From the IMG/VR virus record IMGVR_UViG_3300032087_002232, positions 1 to 23,949 of that record: a stretch of DNA of 23,949 bases, one strand, 5' to 3'. The notes beneath the pieces are model-generated. The model saw only the letters and a program-made list of their open reading frames with translations, was not told where the DNA came from and did no database searches. How positions within the stretch are numbered: the stretch's first letter is position 1; the number at the start of each line of letters is the position of its first letter. Made by a program: the position numbers and the translations under genes. Of this stretch, positions 15,443 to 23,949 are shown one piece after another. The stretch comes from a virus.

Positions 15443-15901
15443 TTAACTAAATAATCTGTCGTATTTGTCAATGTTAATTCTAATTTTATTTGCTAACCGT
15501 TCAAGGATAGTCTCATATCTTTGTTTGATTGTTACACGATGATAACCAAACATTTTACCAAGCTTGGTCCAGGCAAAACGATTTGCACGCAGCCACAAAA
15601 GCTTTCGTGCTTCTATAGGATTTTCAAATAATTCATCAGTGATTTCTAGAAGTAAATCAATCGCTAAATCATACCTGGTCATTTGTCTTGGACTTGCTCG
15701 TAAATGCAGTTTTGGTTTTTCATGGAAACCCCAGTCTGCTTTATCATAATAAGTTTCAAGCAACTTATACATTGTAGGACATCTGTTGTTATTTGGTTTA
15801 GCAATGAAGCGCTCGCAAAAAGCAGCGTCATATAAAATACTTTCAATCTCTTTTTCTAATTTAATTTTCTCTTCAATTATTCTTGTTAAATTTTTTTGCA
15901 T
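15443..15901 (-). CDS. DUF6362-like helix-turn-helix protein, 152 aa
   Basis: The C-terminal half (YDLAIDLLLEITDELF, then RKLLWLRANRFAWTKLGKMFGYHRVTIKQRYETILERLANKI) fits the DUF6362-type phage pattern, ending in a helix-turn-helix where FGYHRVTIKQRYE is the likely recognition helix. The N-terminal half is helical with a CERFIAKPNNNRCPTMYKLLETYY segment. I use ATG 15901; a GTG at 15916 would add five residues. The gene overlaps its upstream neighbour by 16 bases and ends 55 bases before the -35 of the late promoter, so a role as late-gene activator is possible, but this is inference. Confidence 0.75.
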   Translation of the reverse strand: MQKNLTRIIEEKIKLEKEIESILYDAAFCERFIAKPNNNRCPTMYKLLETYYDKADWGFHEKPKLHLRASPRQMTRYDLAIDLLLEITDELFENPIEARKLLWLRANRFAWTKLGKMFGYHRVTIKQRYETILERLANKIRINIDKYDRLFS

Positions 15902-16386
15902 CTTCGTAATACCCACGGATATTTGACATCGCTGTCTTTCATTTGATTAAGTTCCACTGTTGGCAAACTGGATAGCTTCTCTTCCAACTGATACTGGTCC
16001 AAATCAGGAAATTTATAGTTATGTTTAACTTCAGGCGAGACGTGCTGTTTTAAAGTTCTCCAGCCTCTGCTGGTGTTATATTTTTTGAAACCCAGGCTTT
16101 GAATAAAGGCTTTGTGCCTTGGCATATCAAATTTAAGATATGAACCAGTGTCCTCAATACTAATTAACTTTAATCCTTCGACCTCTATTTTGCTCAGCTT
16201 ATCTAAGCATTTTTGGACGGTTTCTAAGGATATTTGAAATTGACCAGCAATATTAACTAATCTAATGAACGATTTTAGCTCTTTTGCGTTAAATTGTTGG
16301 CAAATATAGCTGTAAATACGCCATTCTTGATTATCTAATGTTAATAAATTAAGAACTTTGGGGTCTGATATATAAAAACTAGCCAT
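15886..16386 (-). CDS. Winged-helix DNA-binding protein, 166 aa
   Basis: Residues about 18-100 look like a winged helix: EWRIYSYICQQFNAKELKSFIRLVNIAGQFQISLETVQKCLDKLSKIEVEGLKLISIEDTGSYLKFDMPRH, with the HTH at FQISLETVQKCLDKL and a strand pair as the wing, resembling replication-initiator or MarR-like N-domains. The rest (GWRTLKQHVSPEVKHNY and a Gln/Leu-rich tail) is unrecognised. It is the first leftward gene from the divergent control region and has an AAAGG Shine-Dalgarno sequence. It may be the opposing regulator of the switch or a replication initiator; the sequence does not decide. Confidence 0.7.
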   Translation of the reverse strand: MASFYISDPKVLNLLTLDNQEWRIYSYICQQFNAKELKSFIRLVNIAGQFQISLETVQKCLDKLSKIEVEGLKLISIEDTGSYLKFDMPRHKAFIQSLGFKKYNTSRGWRTLKQHVSPEVKHNYKFPDLDQYQLEEKLSSLPTVELNQMKDSDVKYPWVLRRCKKI

Positions 16387-16403: not shown

Positions 16404-16431
16404 GAATTACCTGTTTCGACTTAATTGTCAA
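16404..16431 (-). promoter_or_regulatory. Leftward promoter of the divergent control region
   Basis: Perfect TTGACA (16431-16426), a 16-base spacer and TAATTC (16409-16404) on the minus strand, leading to the winged-helix gene with a leader of about 10 bases. Its -35 lies 4 bases from the central palindrome. Confidence 0.5.
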
Positions 16432-16434
16432 ATT

Positions 16435-16448
16435 AATATTGCAATATT
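16435..16448. promoter_or_regulatory. Perfect 14-bp palindrome between divergent promoters
   Basis: AATATTGCAATATT is its own reverse complement. It is flanked by GTCAA (16427-16431) and TTGAC (16447-16451), which form a second, outer inverted pair, so the full site spans about 16427-16451. It touches the -35 of both outward promoters and is a strong candidate operator for the lysogeny switch. Confidence 0.6.
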
Positions 16449-16474
16449 GACTTGTAGGCAAAAAGGAATATATC
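16447..16474 (+). promoter_or_regulatory. Rightward promoter of the repressor-like gene
   Basis: TTGACT (16447-16452), 16-base spacer, TATATC (16469-16474). The expected start site falls at or one base before ATG 16482, so the transcript may be leaderless. The spacer contains the motif GACT-3-AGGCAAAAA (16449-16464), which recurs at 18273-18288. Confidence 0.5.
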
Positions 16475-16481
16475 CGAGAAT

Positions 16482-17951
16482 ATGAGGAACAAACCTTTAC
16501 CAAAAGAAACTTTGGCAACACGTACATACGAAAAAGATAAAGTTTTTATTAATTACGAGCCAAGCGCACCAAACAGAGGCGCAATTCTAGTTTATTCTCA
16601 TTACCAACTTTACATGGGTGAAAAATCAGTTCTTGTTAAAATTTTTAACAAAAACAATAGAGACGAAACAATAATCACAAATATAATTTTAGAAGGTGGA
16701 GAAAGAGAAAAAGTTTATTATCAGGTTGTAAAAAGGCTTCCTCTTTTTCAACTAGATAAATTTAAAGAACATTGGAGTAAAGCAAAATTGCAAGTGATGT
16801 ATGCTAGACAAGAATTAGATGGAAAAAGAAAACCTACATTACTAGCTGGAAGAACAATTCCTGATGCTGTTAGAAAAAACGGTGAACTTGTTGAGATAAA
16901 AACAGACAATGAAAAACTTTTTGATTGGAAAGATGCAGGAAATTTTGTTTTTGCAAAATACACTCAACAATACAAATTAGCAAAAAATGTAAAAGTCAAT
17001 TTAGATAAAAAACAAAAAGAATTTATTGACCTAGGTATTTTTAATTACAGAAACGCTAATTCATTATTAGTTGATAAATTTAAAGCAGCAGAAGAATTTT
17101 TAAATTTAAACAAACTTGCAAAAAAATTAGGCTTTGCAGATACATCAATGATTACCAAACACTTAAATGGCGAAAGAGATATAACAAGAGAACAAGCAAT
17201 TCAGTATGGAGAATATTTTGGTTGCGACCCAGCAGATATTTTGTTTCCAAAACCATTAGTAAAAATTTGGGGTCATGTTGATTTTATACATGGAATAACC
17301 GCAGATGCTCGTTTTGTACAAGGTGAAGTAGCAGCTCAAGCTAAAGAAAATTTTAATGAGTGTCCAAGAGATATTTATAGACCAGATGTAAGAGCTGTAA
17401 AAGTTGTTTCTCCAGGTTCTTTTTTAGACAATCAGGTTTTGTTTTATTATGAAAGCAAACAAAATAAAGGAAAAGTGGGTGAGCTTTGTGTTGTAGGTAT
17501 AGAAACAGAAGAGCCAGATTTCGATTTTCATTCTAAAACTTACCACATTGGTATTTATGAAAACGTAAGAGGCAAAATAAAATTTGTAAATCCTGACCCA
17601 TACGCAGAAGGAAATTTTAAAGATTTAGTTATTAAAAATAATGCCTCAATATTTTTTTCATCACCTATCGTTGGAATTATAAATTTAAGTGTAGCAAAAG
17701 GTGCAAGAAAAAATTCTATAAATGCTTTTAAAAAAGCACAGCAAATACAAGAAAGGATTAGAGATATAGAAAATAGAAAATTAATTGAGCAGCAGGCACG
17801 TTTAAAAGTAAAAACCAAAATACAAGTTAAAGAACTTGAAAGAGCTATTAAAGAATTAGACAAATTTATTGGTGTTAAAAATAATGAATTAGATGATTTA
17901 AAATTTGAAGATGATTTACAAAATTTAAGAGAAGCGAAAAAAAGAAAATGA
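16482..17951 (+). CDS. Multi-domain repressor-like protein (XRE HTH, S24-like, coiled coil), 489 aa
   Basis: Four parts can be seen. Residues 1-190 are an unrecognised mixed alpha/beta, Lys-rich domain. Residues about 202-256 are an XRE-type HTH (NKLAKKLGFADTSMITKHLNGERDITREQAIQYGEYFGCDPADILF). Residues about 302-402 resemble the beta domain of S24/LexA-like repressors (RAVKVVSPGSFLDNQVLFYY, KVGELCVVGIET, KTYHIGIYENVRGKIKFVN, SSPIVGIINL), but the usual GDSM serine motif is degraded, so self-cleavage is doubtful. Residues about 410-489 are a charged coiled coil. A normal CI-type repressor is 200-240 aa, so this is twice the size. It heads the rightward operon behind the 16447 promoter and has no Shine-Dalgarno sequence. 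Probable master regulator; DNA target inferred to be the 16435 palindrome. Confidence 0.75.
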   Translation: MRNKPLPKETLATRTYEKDKVFINYEPSAPNRGAILVYSHYQLYMGEKSVLVKIFNKNNRDETIITNIILEGGEREKVYYQVVKRLPLFQLDKFKEHWSKAKLQVMYARQELDGKRKPTLLAGRTIPDAVRKNGELVEIKTDNEKLFDWKDAGNFVFAKYTQQYKLAKNVKVNLDKKQKEFIDLGIFNYRNANSLLVDKFKAAEEFLNLNKLAKKLGFADTSMITKHLNGERDITREQAIQYGEYFGCDPADILFPKPLVKIWGHVDFIHGITADARFVQGEVAAQAKENFNECPRDIYRPDVRAVKVVSPGSFLDNQVLFYYESKQNKGKVGELCVVGIETEEPDFDFHSKTYHIGIYENVRGKIKFVNPDPYAEGNFKDLVIKNNASIFFSSPIVGIINLSVAKGARKNSINAFKKAQQIQERIRDIENRKLIEQQARLKVKTKIQVKELERAIKELDKFIGVKNNELDDLKFEDDLQNLREAKKRK

Positions 17952-18241
17952 AAATAAAAAAAATAAAAAACATGGATTGTTATAATGCTAAAGACGCTGC
18001 AAGTTATTTAGAAATGCCTCGAACTACTTTTCAATATTATGTTTATGGAGATAAAACTTATAATCCAATTCAATTTACTGTTTTTAGAGGCAGACGCTGG
18101 TTTCCGATTGAATATTTAGATAAGTGGAACGAACAAGATAGCAACGTTCTTTATGCATACAAACGTAAAAGAAAAAAAGAACCAAAAAATTCAAACATTT
18201 TAGATTTTAAAAAAGCCGAAAAAGCCGAAAACGCCGACTAA
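17948..18241 (+). CDS. Excisionase/AlpA-like HTH protein, 97 aa
   Basis: Residues about 10-60 have the MerR-type HTH of excisionases and AlpA-like regulators: CYNAKDAASYLEMPRTTFQYYVYGDKTYNPIQF, then FRGRRWFPIEYLDKW as the wing. The tail is very basic (KRKRKKEPKNSN) and ends in a KAEKAENAD mini-repeat. It overlaps the 489-aa gene by 4 bases (ATGA); an internal ATG at 17972 is an alternative start. With an integrase in the same element, a recombination directionality role is plausible; the basic tail would help DNA bending. A regulator without excision function is the alternative. Confidence 0.75.
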   Translation: MKIKKIKNMDCYNAKDAASYLEMPRTTFQYYVYGDKTYNPIQFTVFRGRRWFPIEYLDKWNEQDSNVLYAYKRKRKKEPKNSNILDFKKAEKAENAD

Positions 18242-18272: not shown

Positions 18273-18321
18273 GACTGACAGGCAAAAATACATTGCGCAA
18301 CTGACTAGCAAATATTATTTG
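18273..18321 (+). promoter_or_regulatory. Control region upstream of the exonuclease gene
   Basis: The 86-base gap holds GACT-3-AGGCAAAAA (18273-18288), the same motif and spacing as in the 16447 promoter, and a 13-base palindrome CAAATA-T-TATTTG (18309-18321). A TATTAT (18313-18318) inside the palindrome lies 9 bases before ATG 18328; no good -35 is at the right distance (TTGCGC is 14 bases away). It is probably a regulated promoter for the recombination genes. Confidence 0.4.
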
Positions 18322-18327
18322 GTCGTT

Positions 18328-19356
18328 ATGTCAGATAATAAAATATTAAATCAAAATGTGTTGGAAGACCCATTATTAGATAATGAAATTCTTCCTGAGT
18401 TCGCAAAAAAACTTTCAATTACTCATTGGTCTCCTACTCAAGCATCATTAATTGATGCAGCATGGGTATTTAGATATTTAGTTTTAGACCAAATGCAGCG
18501 CAGACAGCTGCCAGCAAATTCTGCAATGAAAGCAGGTGTTGCTGCTGGAGAAGCAGTTCAAAATTTTTACAGCGATACTATTTATAAAATTGGTCCAAAT
18601 AAAAAATTACAAGCTTTTGAAAATTTTAAAAAAGGCAGAGATAAAAAAGATTTAATTACAGAAGCTGTAAATGAATTTCATGAATATCAAGCTGAAGATG
18701 TAAAAGACCAAGATAAAAAATTTAAATACCTGGAAGAACTTCCAGCAGTAATTAATAACAGTTTCCTTTGCATCGAGGAAATATTAGGCAGCGTGGGTTC
18801 TTTTAACTCCATCGTTGCCGAGCAATCAATCTCCATAACGCAAAAAAAGACATCACTTTTGATGCCGTTAACTGGACGTACCGACCTCACAGTTTTTGGT
18901 GTTTCTACTCTTTCACCTAGTGTCATCTGTGAGATGAAAACTCAGTGGAGCAAGCTCGGCAAAATTAAAAAGGACGGTAGCAGAAGTTTTATAAAAGTGT
19001 CTGCTCCAACGCTGCCTTCATTTAATCATTTAATGCAATGTGCATATTATGCAGCCTACTATGATTTCAAAGTGCCAGTGAAATTATTTTATGCAAATGC
19101 AAATGATTACAGAATATTCGATAGCAATAATTGTATTCACTTGACAGTCGAAGGAATGAAAAAATTATTCCAACAGTTGTTAAATATTTTTAAACGAAGA
19201 GAAAAACTTTTAGCAATGTACCAGGAGTTTGACCGTAACGTTATCATTACAAACATGATTGATAGTATTGATATGAACCGTGACCACCCATGGGCCTGGA
19301 ATAATATTGGCGAAGATAATTTAAAACTAGCGGAGGAACTATGGAAACTAAAATAA
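18328..19356 (+). CDS. PD-(D/E)XK exonuclease (RecB/lambda-exo type), 342 aa
   Basis: A nuclease of the RecB-like PD-(D/E)XK superfamily. D186 in GRTDLTVF, E202 and K204 in ICEMKTQW, and a Q237xxxY241 motif in HLMQCAYYAAYY form the catalytic core; the N-terminal WSPTQASLIDAAWVFRY segment is the usual helix before it. No Cys cluster for an iron-sulfur site. Such enzymes resect 5' ends to make 3' overhangs for an annealing protein, and the ERF-type annealer lies just downstream, so the two form a phage recombination pair. I use ATG 18328; a TTG at 18319 would add three residues. No Shine-Dalgarno sequence is present. The C-terminal third (residues 250-342) shows no further motif. Confidence 0.85.
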   Translation: MSDNKILNQNVLEDPLLDNEILPEFAKKLSITHWSPTQASLIDAAWVFRYLVLDQMQRRQLPANSAMKAGVAAGEAVQNFYSDTIYKIGPNKKLQAFENFKKGRDKKDLITEAVNEFHEYQAEDVKDQDKKFKYLEELPAVINNSFLCIEEILGSVGSFNSIVAEQSISITQKKTSLLMPLTGRTDLTVFGVSTLSPSVICEMKTQWSKLGKIKKDGSRSFIKVSAPTLPSFNHLMQCAYYAAYYDFKVPVKLFYANANDYRIFDSNNCIHLTVEGMKKLFQQLLNIFKRREKLLAMYQEFDRNVIITNMIDSIDMNRDHPWAWNNIGEDNLKLAEELWKLK

Positions 19357-21105: not shown

Positions 21106-21356
21106 GAAGAAGTTATAATTCATTACACACAAAAGATTTTTGCAATCCAAAAACTGGACCTTGGCAAAAATTAAACGACAGCAACTGGTACATTAAAAAA
21201 TATAAAGGACAGCTCCAATTCTATATTGGCTTCAGTTCTTTTTACCAGGCAATGCCTGATAAGTGTTTTTACACAACGATTGAAAATAGTCGTGAGCTTA
21301 ACAAAGAACAAATGTTGCAACAATTACAGCAGTTTAAGGAGGCAAATAATGGGTAA
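21096..21356 (+). CDS. Unknown aromatic-rich small protein, 86 aa
   Basis: An 86-aa basic protein with many aromatic residues (CNPKTGPWQKLNDSNWYIKKYKGQLQFYIGFSSFYQAMPDKCFYTTIENS) and a Gln-rich helical tail. The strands with Trp, Tyr and Lys suggest a small beta domain. The AGAGGAGG Shine-Dalgarno sequence before ATG 21096 is one of the strongest in the early region, so it is probably made in quantity. It overlaps the previous gene by 10 bases. No family recognised. Confidence 0.75.
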   Translation: MRVRRSYNSLHTKDFCNPKTGPWQKLNDSNWYIKKYKGQLQFYIGFSSFYQAMPDKCFYTTIENSRELNKEQMLQQLQQFKEANNG

Positions 21357-21744
21357 GTCACATTCAATAGAACAAAAATCATTTAATGCAGTTGTTGGAG
21401 TAAATCTAAAATTTCTTAGACACAAAAACAAAATGTCTATGAATGATGTTGCTAATCATATTGGTGTTAGGTGGCAGCAAATCTTTAAATATGAAAACGG
21501 TAGTAACCAATTAAGTTTATTTAGAGCAGCACAGTTTTGCAGATTATTTAATATTAGAATGAATGAGCTTGCAGACCCAGACTTGCAGCCAAAGCATCTG
21601 GCGATGGCAGAATGTAAAGTTTTGAATCATGGAATGGTAAAAGCAAAAGATTTTATGGATAGCCTGGACTACTACAAATCAGTTGATGAACAACTTAAAC
21701 GTGATGATTTTTTGGAGGGATTAAAAAATGGCAAGGATAATTAA
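21349..21744 (+). CDS. XRE-family HTH regulator (Cro/CI-like), 131 aa
   Basis: Residues about 13-68 are a standard XRE HTH: NAVVGVNLKFLRHKNKMSMNDVANHIGVRWQQIFKYENGSNQLSLFRAAQFCRLFNIRMNELA, with VANHIGVRWQQIFKYENG as helices 2 and 3. The C-terminal 60 residues are helical, with no peptidase domain. ATG 21349 has AAGGAGG 6 bases before it; longer in-frame starts lie inside the preceding gene. It resembles alphaproteobacterial phage regulators of the short Cro-like kind, and may oppose the 489-aa protein at the switch operators or tune the late promoter. Confidence 0.88.
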   Translation: MGKSHSIEQKSFNAVVGVNLKFLRHKNKMSMNDVANHIGVRWQQIFKYENGSNQLSLFRAAQFCRLFNIRMNELADPDLQPKHLAMAECKVLNHGMVKAKDFMDSLDYYKSVDEQLKRDDFLEGLKNGKDN

Positions 21745-23064: not shown

Positions 23065-23949
23065 CTAGAGAATTTTCGAAGTTCCAATAAGTTTTGCAAC
23101 TGATGCAGTGGTTGCAGCAGTAGCTTTACGATTATGATTACCGTAAATATCTTGAGTAGTTGTAAACTTTGTATGGCCAATTCTAGCTTTTACAAAATTT
23201 GTTGTTAAGTTTTTATCGAAAGCCATATTATCAACCAACAAAGTAGCCAATCGATGTCTCCAAGTTTTCATCGGAGCGCCTTTAAATGGACTATCAATCA
23301 CTATGACATGACCAGATTTCCACTCAATCTTTGCTAAACCATTAGCAGCATAAGTGGACCATAAAATATTAGAAAGACCTTTATCTGAAATAGGTGCTCC
23401 AGTATTTTTGATTGTTGGAAATAACCATAGTGTATGAGGTCGATATTTTTTTAATACTGAAAACCACCATTTAAAAAATGCAGCAGACTTTTCATCAATA
23501 TCAATATCTCTGAAACTGCCTCTGTTTTTAGTACGTCTTAAATATCCACCTTCACCATTAATATAAATACCTTTAATAGATACATAGCCTTCATCAATAT
23601 TTATATGCTGCGGTTTTAGACCTTTAATTTCTGAGCGTCTCAAGCCAAATAAAAACATCATTACAAATATTGCAAAAGTTAATGCTGATTTAAAATCCTC
23701 ATCTTTATTTGCATTTAATTTTGTAAGCATATCGCCTACAGATGTTTCATCAATGACCTGGGTTTCTTTCTCAAAGCGCTGCTCATAATCTGCTGGGACA
23801 ATCGCTTCAACATCTTCAATCTTAAATTTAAGCATATCCAGGCATGGCTTTTTACCTTCTTTAGCCATGTGGTTTAGAAACGTCTTAATGTTTCTAACCG
23901 TACGTTGTAAACGCTTAAACTTATATCCTGCGTTAGAACAGTCTAATAA
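23065..23949 (-). CDS. int: Tyrosine integrase, 5' end beyond window
   Basis: Site-specific recombinase that inserts and excises the phage genome. The catalytic set is visible: Arg in FGLRRSEIKGL, Lys in LRRTKNRGSFRDIDID, KTWR (box II, with Lys in place of the usual His and the invariant Arg), His in RIGHTKFTTT and the nucleophile Tyr in DIYGNH. The frame stays open from the ATG at 23868 to the right edge (27 more codons, including RTVRNIKTFLNHMAKEG, part of the core-binding domain), so that ATG is internal and the gene is incomplete at its N-terminus. At least 294 residues are present. It converges on the rightward operon. Confidence 0.93.
   Translation of the reverse strand, partial: LLDCSNAGYKFKRLQRTVRNIKTFLNHMAKEGKKPCLDMLKFKIEDVEAIVPADYEQRFEKETQVIDETSVGDMLTKLNANKDEDFKSALTFAIFVMMFLFGLRRSEIKGLKPQHINIDEGYVSIKGIYINGEGGYLRRTKNRGSFRDIDIDEKSAAFFKWWFSVLKKYRPHTLWLFPTIKNTGAPISDKGLSNILWSTYAANGLAKIEWKSGHVIVIDSPFKGAPMKTWRHRLATLLVDNMAFDKNLTTNFVKARIGHTKFTTTQDIYGNHNRKATAATTASVAKLIGTSKIL

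Follow-up and report, generated by a model that had tools for sequence, protein, structure and literature searches.

A 489-residue regulator as the probable immunity repressor of a temperate SAR11 podovirus family

A protein of 489 amino acids (aa) is, in our judgment, most probably the autoregulated immunity (lysogeny) repressor of a temperate podovirus family infecting SAR11, the ocean's most abundant bacteria. DNA damage normally leads to the destruction of phage dormancy switch proteins of the CI type; the protein described here has lost residues on which this destruction depends. The case is built on computed features, namely, the domain architecture, the similarity of the fold, the loss of the Lys and of the cleavage site, the paired operator-like sites, their covariation with the DNA-binding helix, and the presence of integrated prophages. 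The gene lies in a 23.9-kb virus record that represents a partial genome and that was analyzed over its full 23,949 nucleotides (the window). The following features are referred to below.

15886..16386, minus strand: divergent gene, HTVC028P gp03-like, which opens the leftward arm toward the terminase and structural genes
16449..16459: dyad 1, operator-like and imperfect, GACTTGTAGGC, upstream of the regulator within the divergent promoter region
16482..17951, plus strand: regulator gene, 489 aa (open frame with ATG at 16482 and stop at 17951; HTVC028P gp05 homolog; 21-row alignment)
16539..16817, plus strand: N-terminal domain, aa 20 to 112 (bbbbaa model, pLDDT of 76 to 86)
17055..17249, plus strand: XRE/Cro-CI helix-turn-helix (HTH), aa 192 to 256 (PHROG and Pfam profiles, model fold)
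17250..17684, plus strand: CI/LexA-like beta domain, aa 257 to 401 (fold matches to 7jvt and 2ho0, alignment to CI and SAR11 LexA, conservation)
17685..17945, plus strand: C-terminal charged helix, aa 402 to 488 (model helix, 45% charged)
17948..18241, plus strand: small gene, 97 aa, overlapping the regulator stop (resembles an HTH protein in some relatives; lineages have exchanged it)
18273..18283: dyad 2, operator-like and imperfect, GACTGACAGGC, in the gap separating the small gene from the nuclease gene
18328..19356, plus strand: early-arm nuclease gene, HTVC028P gp07-like, immediately downstream of dyad 2
21349..21744, plus strand: second XRE regulator, HTVC028P gp15-like, in the early arm (HTH_3 above the Pfam cutoff)
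23065..23949, minus strand: integrase, probably truncated by the contig end (HTVC028P gp20 homolog over 23092 to 23949, 38% identity, E = 4e-52)

The window derives from a SAR11 podovirus related to HTVC028P, a cultured phage assigned to the Ubiqueviridae (PMC10504331). Its genes are collinear with those of HTVC028P, with identities of 70% for the terminase, 76% for the portal, 80% for the capsid, and 38% for the integrase. The regulator (16482 to 17951) showed 36% identity to HTVC028P gp05 (tblastn) and occupies the same place in the gene order. GenBank annotates gp05 as "putative DNA binding protein" and nothing further; when other cultured relatives of the 489-aa regulator were sought, HTVC028P was the only one found.

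An earlier note on this DNA had described an XRE-type HTH in the middle of the protein rather than at its N terminus, preceded by 190 unrecognized residues, and both points were confirmed. A CI-like repressor profile from PHROG matched aa 201 to 257 (E = 1.7e-4), HTH_26/HTH_3 profiles matched 17 of 21 homologs, and the HTH was the only region recognized in the profile searches of the regulator. Residues 1 to 190 matched no Pfam or NCBIfam family; a marginal PHROG match covered aa 119 to 196 (E = 0.0036), with no stretch passing alone. A fairly confident model, built from the N-terminal domain's own alignment, displayed four strands and two helices for aa 20 to 112, and the best hit of this domain in a fold search of the PDB reached only E = 0.3. 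The core of the domain is common to family members despite large inserts, and residues F94 and W98 were invariant across 20 alignment rows. As neither fold nor profile comparison produced a match, the suggestion that the N-terminal domain senses something or binds a partner gained no support. The stretch from aa 113 to 190 was modeled with low confidence and is, by this model, a flexible linker to the HTH.

The full-length model, computed from the 21-sequence alignment, had a mean pLDDT of 65.7, rising to about 80 in the HTH and in most of the C-terminal domain. Searched against the PDB, it matched a lambda/186 hybrid repressor (7jvt; E = 1.7e-5) and, independently of the HTH, the isolated C-terminal fragment of lambda CI (2ho0; E = 8.5e-4, prob 1.00); the matches among viral models were CI/XRE repressors. 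Matches to the MPnS/HEPD phosphonate enzyme fold (root mean square deviation of about 20 Å, TM below 0.2) were judged artefacts because the HTH and beta-domain pieces produce them. The Peptidase_S24 profile (PF00717) was absent from the listed families for all 21 members, and profile comparison of the C-terminal domain alone (hhalign) gave P = 0.045, short of significance. The S24-like beta domain that had been proposed for this region therefore held up as a predicted fold matching that of lambda CI but not as an S24 profile match. The C-terminal domain is predicted to have a CI-like fold, an assignment resting on a model of moderate confidence.

Alignment of the regulator family with nine CI repressors and SAR11 LexA revealed colinear landmarks: the strand preceding the Ser loop, G-x-L-(C)-x-V, NPDPY versus (L)NPxY, and P-I-V-G-I-V versus I-I-G-V-V. 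The Ser position, S313 (17418 to 17420), reads "SPGS" in the window and "RGSM" in sister lineages; in this landmark alignment, which is not a solved structure, it is occupied by Ser in 29 of 31 family members (Cys in L028 and Gly in L030). The Lys strand was left unplaced by MAFFT, and we assigned the Lys base to G357 (17550 to 17552), taking the NP motif and the hairpin Gly as reference points and counting backward; this position is Gly in all 31 members. At the cleavage-site position, the family lacks Ala-Gly and reads FI, FL, TL, LL, and similar. The clear serine motif that had been reported missing is thus better described as a dyad of which the Ser position is kept and the other half, the Lys, is gone. 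Since both the Lys base and the Ala-Gly site are missing, release by self-cleavage is unlikely. The regulator is probably not self-cleaving and so probably not RecA cleavable, which, as far as sequences can tell, bears out the noncleavable regulator of the earlier note.

It is possible, though we consider it unlikely, that the repressor is nevertheless SOS responsive, either as a diverged peptidase that uses another base or through an antirepressor; this alternative competes only with the SOS-independent part of our reading. It is favored by the retention of the Ser position and by LexA-like and UmuD-like S24 proteins in the SAR11 hosts, which have lengths of about 230 and 140 aa, with at least one in 58 of 60 genomes. 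The six larger proteins inspected carry the LexA features Ala-Gly, GDSM, and LKR, and the smaller ones (~140 aa) were taken to be UmuD-like. Against it stand the Gly at the aligned Lys position in every relative and the missing Ala-Gly site, together with the number of SOS boxes (GTTCN7GTTC), which was not above chance in the partial-genome window. A LexA-controlled antirepressor in the window was set aside on the same count, which does not by itself exclude that route.

The charged C-terminal tail seen earlier was recovered as one long predicted helix (aa 402 to 471 plus aa 477 to 488; 45% charged), which probably forms a coiled coil. Two motifs of the C-terminal domain, PRDIYRP (aa 295 to 301) and FYY (aa 321 to 323; P0001 numbering), are nearly invariant in phage and host members and are better conserved than the recognition helix. 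Judged by this conservation, they may represent a binding surface, specific to this family, for a partner or ligand.

In most lineages, a short dyad peculiar to the lineage is present twice, at a spacing of 1.5 to 1.9 kb. The first copy precedes the regulator, within the divergent promoter region, and the second is found between the overlapping small gene and the nuclease gene. AGACYNNNRGTCT was found exactly twice, in these constant two places, in each of 8 complete HTVC028P-lineage loci, once in the truncated L014, and in none of the other loci of that first set (L015 and L010 are one contig). In the complete 36.4-kb HTVC028P genome, it occurred at 2263 and 4120 only, compared to an average of 0.23 in shuffles. 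The equivalent two places hold TTATCCANNNTGGATAA in L027 and L034, TAGTCANNNNTGACTA in L022, TTGTACANNTGTACAA in L037, and TTGCAANNTTGTCAA in L035; GTCAANNTTGAC of L036 was present at the two places only within 77 kb of G126. Pairs were reached in 0 of 1,000 shuffles for L022, L027, and L037, in 1 for L036, in 2 for L008, and in 5 for L009. Four-base-arm pairs in single HTVC028P-lineage loci were reached in 32 to 103 of 1,000 shuffles (3 to 10%), values that are individually modest and come from related loci. The pair of L035, an imperfect dyad, was obtained by direct comparison (0 of 200 shuffles). No paired site was seen in L018, L025, or the host chromosomal copies. In L034 (1447 to 3017), an extra small open reading frame separates the regulator start from the upstream operator (3009).

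Four further loci (L062 to L065), fetched after the pattern had been recognized, constituted a held-out set. Exact pairs in the predicted places were observed in two of the four, AGACTGNCAGTCT at 1408 and 3122 in L062 and TTGTCAANNTTGACAA at 1285 and 2905 in L064. L063 contained a recurring nonpalindromic 13-mer, TGGACAATASCCA, and no paired site was seen in L065.

In the window itself, the pattern GMCTNNNAGGC, picked after the sites had been seen, occurred at 16449 and 18273 only (shuffles average 0.2). An upstream-downstream 16-mer with 13 matches was reached in 10 of 150 shuffles, and an exact-palindrome test found no pair. The dyad match in the window is weak by itself; therefore, its case rests on position, on L003 and L005, which hold GACTAATAGGC and GCCTAATAGGC, respectively, at the place of dyad 2, and on the relatives. 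A binding site had previously been proposed at 16427 to 16451. This is a genuine imperfect inverted repeat spanning two presumed −35 boxes, but it is absent from the second site and was rejected as the recurrent operator; the recurring element, 16449 to 16459, overlaps it by only 3 bp. Promoters in the divergent region were assigned by eye, and a consensus promoter scan of that region called none.

A natural swap in L062 points to the protein that would bind these sites. The HTH of its regulator is 58 to 63% identical to that of the HTVC028P lineage, and the locus carries the HTVC028P-lineage operator, whereas its small protein is 62 to 63% identical to the L037 and L063 versions, whose loci bear other elements. 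The operator thus tracks the regulator HTH and not the small protein, and the regulator is therefore the better candidate binder. L027 and L034 have helix and operator in common, but their small proteins are alike, too (76%). By sequence comparison, the operator covaries with the regulator HTH rather than with the small gene. The small gene exists in several dissimilar types, whose exchange between lineages is not coupled to the operator; an HTH_17 match was obtained for the L027 version only (E = 0.025), and a Cro-like, excisionase-like, or antirepressor role is possible.

We regard it as doubtful that the regulator is instead an early-operon autoregulator or a Cro/MOR-like lytic regulator, with another protein, e.g., the small XRE protein gp15, as the true prophage repressor. 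The regulator is the first gene of the rightward early run, whereas lambda cI and the lytic operon diverge, and the second XRE gene lies in the same early arm. However, the second operator follows the cassette and precedes the nuclease gene, so that an operator flanks the cassette on either side, the arrangement of an immunity region, and it is the HTH of the 489-aa regulator with which the operator covaries. A role of the gp15-like protein as a coregulator stays compatible with our interpretation. That the regulator initiates replication or partition by binding iterons, the repeated dyads serving as origin elements, is very improbable: a large multidomain DNA-binding protein, two repeated sites near recombination genes, and a weak replication-initiator PHROG match of a gene neighboring the regulator (E = 0.015) would fit, but the single sites 1.5 to 1.9 kb apart in promoter-like intergenic regions are not iteron arrays, the fold is CI-like, and a replication domain was not found. 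A toxin-antitoxin function, as the HigA-like HTH might suggest, was rejected, no toxin neighbor having been found.

Near-complete integrated relatives were identified in two host contigs. In G126, the prophage occupies about 246 to 278 kb of a 399-kb contig, and its integrase adjoins tRNA-Met; in G071, the integrase adjoins tRNA-Cys and the contig stops within the structural genes. Both prophages contain the regulator and, in the stretch read, exactly two copies of their own dyad. These integrated prophages, the paired lineage-specific operator-like sites, and the HTH-operator covariation agree with the earlier proposal of a temperate phage master regulator. The regulator family was detected in 8 of 247 Pelagibacteraceae genomes (one being a weak coil-only match) and in 9 of 397 genomes of a wider order-level sample; class and phylum samples outside Pelagibacterales yielded HTH-range matches only, besides G001.

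Larger chromosomal homologs of 656 to 759 aa (L028, L029, L030, and L038) are located divergently beside a NurA-like/HerA pair (in L038, the contig ends there and shows NurA alone). The homologs precede a small gene and an RmuC gene. Only 10 of 247 Pelagibacteraceae genomes were found to contain NurA. The 759-aa homolog (L038, 823 to 3102) contains an FtsZ C-terminal domain at aa 603 to 683 (PF12327; E = 7e-19). These homologs are possibly a domesticated switch of an accessory DNA-processing or defense cluster. A tentative extension would be that the non-cleaving CI-like repressor responds to something other than DNA damage, such as a metabolite of the host or a partner protein, through its N-terminal domain or the PRDIYRP/FYY surface and that the NurA-HerA homologs are domesticated versions of it.

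As an immunity repressor, the regulator probably binds as a dimer to the two dyad copies that flank the regulator/small-gene cassette. At the upstream copy, where the presumed divergent promoters overlap, the bound protein could regulate both its own gene and the leftward late arm; at the second copy, before the early nuclease/recombination operon, it would control the early arm. The C-terminal domain would serve for assembly, as in CI, but with neither the Lys base nor the Ala-Gly site, and release would more likely proceed via a partner or signal acting on the N- or C-terminal domain or via an antirepressor. We infer DNA binding, repression, and the lack of cleavage, as well as dimerization or looping via the C-terminal helix. 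The spacing of the dyads (1.5 to 1.9 kb) is comparable in magnitude to the 2.3 kb that separates the lambda operators (PMC5880393), and looping is therefore possible; by this analogy, a loop through the C-terminal domain or helix is speculative.

HTVC010P-type pelagiphages are reported to rank second in abundance among the known pelagiphage groups (PMC12753301); integrases are encoded by many of them (PMC11094077). A named lysogeny repressor of these phages was not found in the literature examined, although the repressor may have been named earlier. Immunity repressors and noncleavable repressors are already known classes; new are the domain architecture, the assignment of a likely repressor to this SAR11 phage group, and the prediction of operators and immunity classes. 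With a likely repressor named and candidate operators predicted in several lineages, heteroimmunity groups should be predictable from the HTH alone. If release does not occur via RecA cleavage, SAR11 prophage induction would need another trigger.

Among known systems, the HTH of the regulator alone is closest in sequence to HigA-type XRE antitoxins, from which the regulator differs in all other domains and in that no adjacent toxin partner was found. Gifsy-type repressors remain uncleaved during induction and are lifted by LexA-controlled antirepressors (PMC3121763), and repressor inactivation by a small protein is known (PMC10432266); either route might place the regulator under SOS control. 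Repression lifted without cleavage is likely the mode shared with the Gifsy type; the regulator differs in architecture, and no antirepressor or LexA box was identified in the partial-genome window. Like the regulator, lambda CI and P22 C2 combine an XRE HTH with a following CI C-terminal fold (7jvt, 2ho0) and colinear landmarks, the NP(x)Y motif among them, have operators flanking the repressor cassette, and belong to temperate phages integrated at tRNA genes. In contrast to these proteins of about 220 aa, the 489-aa regulator has ~190 extra N-terminal residues with a separate fold and a C-terminal helix, lacks the Lys base, the Ala-Gly site, and an S24 profile match, is codirectional with the early genes, and usually has one recognizable dyad per side. 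HTVC028P gp05 is its direct homolog but belongs to a different lineage with an operator of its own, AGACYNNNRGTCT.
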